Assembly: GCA_031261085.1 (NCBI GenBank)
Contig: JAISKB010000004.1
Location: 124,001-188,000 of the forward strand
Source of the DNA: Christensenellaceae bacterium
Lineage (GTDB): Bacteria > Bacillota > Clostridia > Christensenellales > CAG-138
Direction of reading: 5' to 3'
DNA: 64,000 bases
Below, piece after piece: positions 696-2,543 of this stretch (position 1 is the stretch's first letter; every line of letters starts with the position of its first letter). The position numbers and the translations under genes are program-made. Below the pieces are notes generated by a model. The model made no database searches and was not told the DNA's origin. It worked only from the letters and a program-made list of their open reading frames with translations.

Positions 696-724
696 TTGAC
701 ATTTTCGCAAGCCGGTGATAATAT
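696..724 (+). promoter_or_regulatory. Sigma-A promoter of the T-box/lyase transcript
   Basis: TTGACA at 696-701 and TAATAT at 719-724 are separated by 17 bases. TG one base before the -10 adds an extended -10. Transcription would begin near 731, just ahead of T-box stem I. Confidence 0.8.
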
Positions 725-730
725 TTCCGA

Positions 731-1022
731 AAGGCTTTGATGAAGAGAAAGACACAGCGGATGCCGGAACCACGTTTTGTGGGGCAGAAAGTCTGCGGTT
801 GCTGCGAGCAGATCCCGTGTAGCTGTGTGCAAATACACTTCGGAGCCGGCGCGTTGAACAAGCAGTAGGCGCGCCCGGGTGTTACCGTTACATGACGCGG
901 AATTGCTGGATTCCAATAAGCGGCGGTTCGGTTCGAATCGCAATAAGGGTGGTACCGCGGAAGATTTTACGCTTTCGTCCCTTAGAACAGAGGAGTTTGT
1001 TCTAAGAGGCGAGGGCTTTTTT
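731..1022 (+). promoter_or_regulatory. T-box riboswitch, probable tyrosine specifier (UAC)
   Basis: The diagnostic T-box sequence AGGGTGGTACCGCGG lies at 946-960. Stem I can be drawn: GGCTTTG (733-739) pairs with CGGAGCC (841-847), a GATGA K-turn follows, and ACACAGC (752-758) pairs with GCTGTGT (822-828). The apical part AGAAAG...GGTTGCTGCGAG matches the conserved distal loop and AG bulge. The 3' side of the specifier loop reads GCAAATACACTT. With the usual purine after the codon, the specifier is TAC (834-836), for Tyr. T-boxes let transcription continue when the cognate tRNA is uncharged. The terminator/antiterminator region follows directly and the lyase gene starts 64 bases after it. AAT (Asn) is the only other register I considered, and it fits less well. 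Confidence 0.93.
971..1022 (+). terminator. T-box regulatory terminator
   Basis: CTTAGAAC pairs with GTTCTAAG, extended outward by GCTTTCGTC against GGCGAGGGC with G-U pairs and one mismatch. A T run follows at 1017-1022. The 5' strand can alternatively pair with the T-box sequence to form the antiterminator. Confidence 0.85.
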
Positions 1023-1085
1023 ATTTACAAATTCCTCAACCCTATCCATCCAACCAAATCACAATTTTAGGGGAGGAAACAGGCA

Positions 1086-2543
1086 ATGGAAAACACAAAC
1101 AGCGTACAGTTCTTTTCGGGCGAAAACATACCCTTGGAGATGCATAAGGTGCGTATGGTGCAGCGGCTGCACCTGCCCACGGTAGAGGATCGCCTGCGGG
1201 CCATGCAGGCAGCCGGCAACAACACGTTTTTGCTGCGCAACCGGGATGTATACCTCGATATGCTCACCGACAGCGGCGTAAACGCCATGAGCGAGGCGCA
1301 ATATGCCGCCATGATGATGGCGGATGACAGCTATGCCGGCAGCGAAACCTTCTTTAGGCTTTCGGATGCTCTGCACGAGTTTTTTGGCAAGGATTACTTT
1401 TTGCCCGCGCACCAAGGCCGCGCGGCCGAAAACATCATCGCCAGCGCGTTTGTAAAGCCCGGCGACATCACCCCCATGAACTACCACTTCACCACCACCA
1501 AGGCGCTCATCACCCGCATGGGCGGCACCGTGGTGGAGGTGTTTTCGGAGGACGCGCTGGATTCCAGCGTGATTAAGCCCTTTAAGGGCGACTTGAATAT
1601 GGAAAAGCTGGAGGCCTGCGTGCAGGCGGCCGGCGCGAGCAAAATCAGCTTTGTACGCATCGAGGCGGGCACCAACCTCATCGGCGGGCAGCCGGTTTCG
1701 CTGCAGAACATGCGCGCGGTATCCAAGTTTTGCCGGGCAAAGGGCATACCCCTGGTGTTTGACGCGAGCTTGCTGGCCGATAACCTATTCTTCATCAAAA
1801 CGCGGGATGCGGAGTGCGCCGACAAAACGCTGGGGGCTATCGTGCATGAGCTATCCGAGCTGATGGATATCATCTACTTCTCCGCCCGCAAGCTGGGCTG
1901 CGCCCGGGGCGGCGGCATCGTCACCTCCGACAAGGCGCTCTATGAAGCCATGCGGGAATTTGTGCCGCTGTTTGAAGGCTTTTTGACCTATGGCGGCATG
2001 AGCGTGCGCGAGATGGAAGCCATGGCCGTGGGCCTGCGCGAAACGCTGGATTTGGAGGTAATCAACCAAACGCCCATGTTCATCGCCGCCCTGGGCGAGG
2101 CGCTGCAGCAAAAGGGCGTGCCGGTCGTCACCCCGTTTGGCGGGCTGGGCTGCCATGTGGATGCTTCCCGCTTTGTGGAGCATATCCCGCAGTCGCAATA
2201 CCCGGCGGGCGCGCTGGGGGCGGCCATCTACCTGGCCGGCGGCATACGCGGCATGGAGCGCGGCACGCTTTCGGAGCAGCGCAGGCCGGATGGCAGCGAA
2301 ACCTTCTCCGAAATGGAGCTGGTGCGCCTGGCCGTGCCCAAGCGGGTGTTCACGCTTTCGCAAATCAAGTTTGTCGCCGACCGCGTAGGCTGGCTGTATG
2401 AAAACCGCAATCTCATTGGCGGGCTTACCTTTGAGGAGGAGCCCTCCACGCTGCGCTTCTTCTTTGGCCGCCTTCGCCCCATCGGCGATTGGCAGGAAAA
2501 GCTGGCGGCAAAATTCCTTGCGGATATGCCGAACGGGCTCTAA
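1086..2543 (+). CDS. Tyrosine phenol-lyase-like beta-eliminating lyase (tryptophanase family)
   Basis: PLP enzyme of the tryptophanase/tyrosine phenol-lyase family, 485 aa. Family reaction: tyrosine or tryptophan to phenol or indole plus pyruvate and ammonia, reversible for the tyrosine enzyme. Compared from memory with Citrobacter freundii TPL, these positions align: Phe48 (F36), Tyr83 (Y71), Arg112 (R100), Thr136 (T124), Asn197 (N185), Asp226 (D214), PLP Lys269 in SARKLG (K257), Arg392 in MERG (R381), Arg414 (R404) and Phe458 (F448). Thr136 and Arg392 are the phenol-side residues; tryptophanase has Asp and Ile there. Oddities: Leu229 replaces R217, which contacts PLP, and there is a C-terminal extension of about 17 residues. 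The SD GGGGAGG at 1070-1076 supports the ATG. Expression is under the Tyr T-box. The true substrate could be another aromatic or beta-substituted amino acid. Confidence 0.85.
   Translation: MENTNSVQFFSGENIPLEMHKVRMVQRLHLPTVEDRLRAMQAAGNNTFLLRNRDVYLDMLTDSGVNAMSEAQYAAMMMADDSYAGSETFFRLSDALHEFFGKDYFLPAHQGRAAENIIASAFVKPGDITPMNYHFTTTKALITRMGGTVVEVFSEDALDSSVIKPFKGDLNMEKLEACVQAAGASKISFVRIEAGTNLIGGQPVSLQNMRAVSKFCRAKGIPLVFDASLLADNLFFIKTRDAECADKTLGAIVHELSELMDIIYFSARKLGCARGGGIVTSDKALYEAMREFVPLFEGFLTYGGMSVREMEAMAVGLRETLDLEVINQTPMFIAALGEALQQKGVPVVTPFGGLGCHVDASRFVEHIPQSQYPAGALGAAIYLAGGIRGMERGTLSEQRRPDGSETFSEMELVRLAVPKRVFTLSQIKFVADRVGWLYENRNLIGGLTFEEEPSTLRFFFGRLRPIGDWQEKLAAKFLADMPNGL

Follow-up and report, generated by a model that had tools for sequence, protein, structure and literature searches.

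A tyrosine T-box leader upstream of a lyase gene

The window, by which we mean the whole 64-kb stretch of DNA analysed here, contains a complete transcription-attenuating T-box unit that is followed by a single gene for a PLP lyase resembling tyrosine phenol-lyase (TPL) (Table 1). The leader is the sole Rfam match in the window, and a T-box arising by chance was rejected. It is preceded by a promoter-like site, of which four were found against a mean of 1.2 in shuffled sequence. The antiterminator and terminator have positions 971–984 in common and are mutually exclusive, and none of 200 shuffled sequences gave a fold as good as that of the terminator. The next gene, for formate–tetrahydrofolate ligase, lies at 2827, has its own promoter-like site (2732–2761) and is not adjacent to the TPL-like gene in relatives.

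Table 1 Features of the T-box–lyase locus and of the ligase loci in the same genome (positions without a prefix are those of the window; G000 is the window's genome)
Feature	Position	Strand	Basis or remark
Sigma-70-type promoter, TTGACA-17 nt-TAATAT, TG before the -10	696-724	+	Just 5' of the leader
T-box leader RNA, Stem I to antiterminator	728-985	+	RF00230, 109.1 bits (GA cut-off 93), E 3.4e-23
Specifier codon UAC (Tyr), then A837	834-836	+	RF00230 model positions 91-93
Antiterminator helix	944-984	+	Fold -17.5 kcal/mol for 925-985, plus T-box consensus
T-box bulge UGGU	950-953	+	Complementary to tRNA-Tyr 3' end A73-CCA
Intrinsic terminator (helix 971-1016, U-run of six U 1017-1022)	971-1022	+	Fold -27.9 kcal/mol, z -6.0
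Ribosome-binding site GGGAGG	1071-1076	+	Sequence; 9 bases 5' of ATG 1086
TPL-like PLP lyase, 485 aa, fold type I	1086-2543	+	PF01212
Ligase/T-box locus	G000:C9:51640-53601		L152, L072
Locus within the VOR-IlvE region	G000:C9:57.7-61.2 kb		L215
Ligase/T-box locus	G000:C9:62745-65322		L153, L075

The covariance fit to RF00230 gives a tyrosine specifier, in agreement with the sequence-only reading, which had proposed a tyrosine-specific T-box. The only tRNA-Tyr found in the genome has the anticodon GUA, which pairs with the UAC specifier, and a 3' end (...CCCATCC-A-CCA, discriminator A) whose A73-CCA pairs with the UGGU bulge. We calibrated the reading of the specifier on the genome's nine other T-boxes, using the gene downstream of each. 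The same model positions give the correct amino acid for asparagine synthase (AAC), valS (GUC), leuS (CUC), trpB (UGG), pheS (UUC) and TrpX (UGG), and the thrS T-box fits with the frame shifted by one base, so that seven of the nine fit in total; the remaining two precede acyl-CoA ligases (Val and Ile, discussed below). The other frames of the window's specifier (AAU, AUA and ACA) are excluded by the model position and by the genes behind the other T-boxes, and they conflict with the UACR that is invariant in related leaders (R is A in 36 of 37).

Apart from the window's leader the genome has no Tyr T-box, and none was found there before tyrS or before the shikimate-route tyrA (contig 10). The window's leader has the Stem I, UAC specifier loop, UGGU bulge and antiterminator–terminator competition of the tyrS-type T-box (RF00230), but it controls a lyase rather than tyrS, an NhaC transporter or the prephenate route.

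Active-site residues of the enzyme

We gathered relatives of the enzyme from named genomes, from 100 related genomes and from 398 genomes of the phylum. Its orthologues, here termed clade A, are about 57–74% identical to it and are separated by a sharp gap from ordinary TPLs and tryptophanases (44% at most). The nearest solved structures are TPLs (1c7g, E 1.1e-113), followed by tryptophanases (E about 1e-90), and the 38–43% full-length identity to solved enzymes makes the fold type I assignment certain.

In TPL (EC 4.1.99.2) the phenol hydroxyl is bound by Thr124 and Arg381, and the ring is pressed by Phe448/449 (PMC11301627). The sequence-only reading had picked out Thr136 and Arg392 as phenol-side residues, and these do align with TPL Thr124 and Arg381. 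Together with Tyr83, Phe135, Phe458, Met390, Lys269 and Arg414 (TPL Tyr71, Phe123, Phe448, Met379, Lys257 and Arg404) they are identical in all 83 clade A proteins; Phe449 is also kept in the enzyme. Five positions (Thr124, Met288, Met379, Arg381 and Phe448) separate TPL from tryptophanase (PMC5805759). Clade A has the TPL state at four of them and the tryptophanase state, Phe, at position 288, where Phe also occurs in some canonical-looking TPLs of the phylum.

What the earlier reading missed is that other conserved TPL residues are replaced. The window protein has Leu229 for Arg217, Leu354 for His343, Arg268 for Lys256, Asp81 for Glu69, Arg274 for Asn262 and Phe299 for Met288. The first four substitutions recur in 83 of 83 clade A proteins, as does the replacement of Asn262 by Arg or Lys, and clade A likewise has Phe for Met288, whereas the canonical TPLs examined from the phylum all keep Arg217, His343, Glu69 and Asn262. 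We take Arg217 of TPL to contact the PLP 3'-oxygen and Glu69 and Asn262 to help hold the activating K+, and in the window protein Arg274, opposite Asp81, may replace this ion.

The protein also falls short of the TPL equivalog model TIGR02618 (440 bits; cut-off 720.7). Given this score and the loss of Arg217, His343 and the potassium-site residues, the enzyme is, on the alignments, TPL-like rather than a TPL as defined, and its clade stands apart from TPL within the superfamily; with those residues lost, even phenol-lyase chemistry is less than certain.

Although it shares a superfamily with tryptophanase, the enzyme fails the tryptophanase model TIGR02617 (330 bits; cut-off 825.8) and lacks the indole-side residues Asp137, Val394, Ile396 and His463 of E. 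coli TnaA, having Thr, Arg and Phe in place of Asp137, Ile396 and His463. We therefore rejected an assignment as tryptophanase on the pocket residues. It does pass NF009709, a 'tryptophanase' subfamily model (573 bits; cut-off 285), and having missed TIGR02618 it takes its database name from NF009709 although the pocket differs. The public annotation of the clade is accordingly 'tryptophanase', as for the orthologue at NZ_CP023549.1:232895-234334, despite the absent indole-side residues.

Taken jointly, the T-box, its tyrosine specificity and the TPL-like pocket are confirmed with very little room for doubt.

Conservation of the T-box–enzyme pairing

All 37 T-box leaders found 5' of clade A genes in Bacillota, including that of the window, have the UAC specifier and the UGGU bulge, and they are spread over many families of the phylum. 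This link between T-box and enzyme goes beyond the sequence-only reading. The leaders are otherwise divergent: the columns of a 20-leader alignment average 52% identity, with the U-A-C-A and UGGU cores invariant. Clustering the neighbours of 68 loci revealed no conserved neighbour gene, and hence no pathway partner. The constancy of the leaders alongside unconserved neighbours shows that the T-box goes with the gene and not with an operon. Clade A genes from Bacteroidales and Deltaproteobacteria have no T-box, nor do a minority of those from Bacillota, and on a tree the presence of the T-box takes 10 changes, compared with 31 when the labels are shuffled. Within the open literature searched, we found no paper linking a T-box to this enzyme.

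Many Tyr leaders (L041-L056, L097, L104, L110-L120) have UGGUAAC-ACG or UGGUACC-ACG at the bulge as a variant of the usual UGGUACC-GCG. In many orthologue leaders UGGUAAC replaces the UGGUACC of the tyrS type.

Clade A genes without a T-box often have a GGTAGGATGGTAGG-like leader (L100, L102, L105, L107, L119). In L100 and L119 this is followed by a terminator-like hairpin with a T-run, and a short ORF with a single Tyr codon precedes the hairpin; these two leaders are possibly another attenuator.

Clade B (L058-L068), a sister group from the same family as the window with about 50% identity, keeps Arg381 but has Gly or Cys for Thr124 and Asn, Gln, Met or His for Phe448, and probably acts on a different substrate. 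No T-box was found on the clade B genes. With its altered pocket and missing T-box, clade B indicates that the phenol pocket and the Tyr T-box occur together. In four further sequences (L168-L171), which come from other families, the pocket is retained and the stretches read contain no T-box. At least one genome, G191, encodes a canonical TPL (L167, 63% identical to E. herbicola TPL) as well as a clade A enzyme (L121), and this coexistence implies that their roles differ.

Relation to the standard tyrosine route

The window's genome has tyrA, prephenate dehydratase (PDT) and chorismate synthase. We searched 101 relatives and 398 phylum genomes with profiles for prephenate dehydrogenase and PDT, and only 1 of the 22 clade A genomes having PDT is without tyrA. 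The idea that the enzyme fills in for a missing tyrA is thus unsupported: with tyrA present in its own genome it is not a simple filler of a missing step, and we conclude from both observations that it is a supplementary or conditional route rather than a substitute for one lost step.

Clade A genes occur more often where tyrA is missing (16/39 genomes compared with 74/358, p 0.008, ignoring shared descent), and the T-box on clade A genes is more frequent there too (20/22 compared with 13/25, Fisher p 0.004, likewise ignoring shared descent). The tree offers two to six independent pairs for this association, too few for a correction for descent. Chorismate synthase is absent from several T-box-bearing members of the family (G016, G019, G020, G021, G035 and others), some of these assemblies being incomplete.

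Val and Ile T-boxes over a putative branched-chain salvage locus

The two T-boxes of the window's genome that precede acyl-CoA ligases read Val (GUC) and Ile (AUC). The ligases are MbcS-like acyl-CoA synthetases, closest to the branched-chain carboxylic acid ligase MbcS (439 and 413 bits, neither reaching the equivalog cut-off of 850). Between them lie VorB, the beta and gamma subunits of a 2-oxoacid:ferredoxin oxidoreductase (VOR) and the branched-chain aminotransferase IlvE. T-boxes beside such ligases also occur in six relatives (G002, G004, G007, G069, G071 and G082). From its gene content the locus looks like T-box-controlled synthesis of valine and isoleucine by reductive carboxylation of isobutyrate and 2-methylbutyrate, and the VOR-IlvE/MbcS arrangement looks like one in which amino acids are reassembled from their own breakdown products. 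For tyrosine, the corresponding product is phenol.

A proposed role in tyrosine supply

As uncharged tRNA is what opens a T-box, it would make little sense to place a Tyr T-box in control of an enzyme that only degrades. The gene behaves like a T-box-controlled biosynthetic gene, and the most likely reading, which we favour modestly over its negation, is that it encodes a tyrosine-making, phenol-salvaging enzyme. Uncharged tRNA-Tyr would pair with the UAC and UGGU of the leader and hold the antiterminator, allowing transcription to proceed into the TPL-like gene. The enzyme would then make L-tyrosine from phenol, pyruvate and ammonia by reversal of the TPL reaction or, in an alternative chemistry, by β-replacement on serine or cysteine with phenol. 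The phenol is assumed to be available as a breakdown product released by gut neighbours. Valine and isoleucine would be rebuilt from branched acids in the same genome in a like manner, through T-boxes, MbcS-like ligases, VOR and IlvE. The T-box, its tyrosine specificity, the promoter, the terminator, their conservation and the phenol pocket are read from the sequences; from there we infer the direction of the reaction, phenol as its substrate and the physiological role.

A direction towards tyrosine is strengthened by the 37 Tyr T-boxes, by the coexistence with canonical TPL, by the higher frequency of clade A and its T-box where tyrA is missing (ignoring shared descent) and by the Val and Ile T-boxes over the MbcS-VOR-IlvE genes; it is limited by the genome's own tyrA and by the loss of conserved TPL residues. 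It also has a counterpart in the B. cereus group, where phenylalanine-4-hydroxylase, a non-standard tyrosine-forming enzyme, is T-box-controlled (PMC2494555). Both cases combine T-box control with tyrosine formation outside the shikimate route, as proposed here, but the enzymes are unrelated and the precursor of the hydroxylase is phenylalanine.

Because conserved TPL residues have been lost, the enzyme might act on another phenolic amino acid, or with another leaving group, and still serve the supply of tyrosine or of a tyrosine-derived product, for example by using a substituted phenol or a modified compound from which tyrosine or some required precursor is freed. The substitutions common to clade A, the failed TPL equivalog cut-off and the proof from clade B that the pocket changes within the lineage all speak for this. 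However, every residue in contact with the ring or hydroxyl of phenol is TPL-like (PMC11301627, PMC5805759) and the T-box senses tRNA-Tyr itself, and we consider a different substrate rather unlikely, though deserving of serious weight.

TPL is best known for degradation, which counts against the synthesis reading. An ordinary degradative TPL, its T-box a historical acquisition or a means of balancing the tyrosine pool, would agree with the clear homology to TPL and with the reversibility of the reaction. We nevertheless judge this improbable, since the T-box would induce such an enzyme under tyrosine shortage, the retention of UAC in every one of the 37 leaders, divergent as they are, points to selection for the sensing of Tyr, and canonical TPL coexists with clade A in G191. 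Detoxification would account for induction of a lyase by uncharged tRNA-Tyr in another way, the enzyme destroying a tyrosine analogue that blocks tyrosyl-tRNA synthetase so that failed charging opens the T-box; TPL-type enzymes do accept DOPA and halogenated tyrosines (PMC5805759). Yet the gene stands alone in random neighbourhoods with no linked transporter or analogue-making genes, and the enzyme occurs in many taxa, in some of them without the T-box, making this explanation very improbable.

The tyrosine-making, phenol-salvaging reading can be extended, more tentatively and at somewhat short of an even chance, to a natural 'tyrosine synthase' that would use scavenged phenol, be wired to a Tyr T-box and belong to a T-box programme by which gut bacteria would rebuild amino acids from fermentation products (phenol, isobutyrate and 2-methylbutyrate). 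If true, this would constitute a chorismate-independent natural route to tyrosine, account for a widespread gene that at present carries the label 'tryptophanase' or TPL, and turn phenol, usually a gut waste, into a recycled nutrient. The T-box also points to a function for an enzyme clade misnamed by routine annotation.
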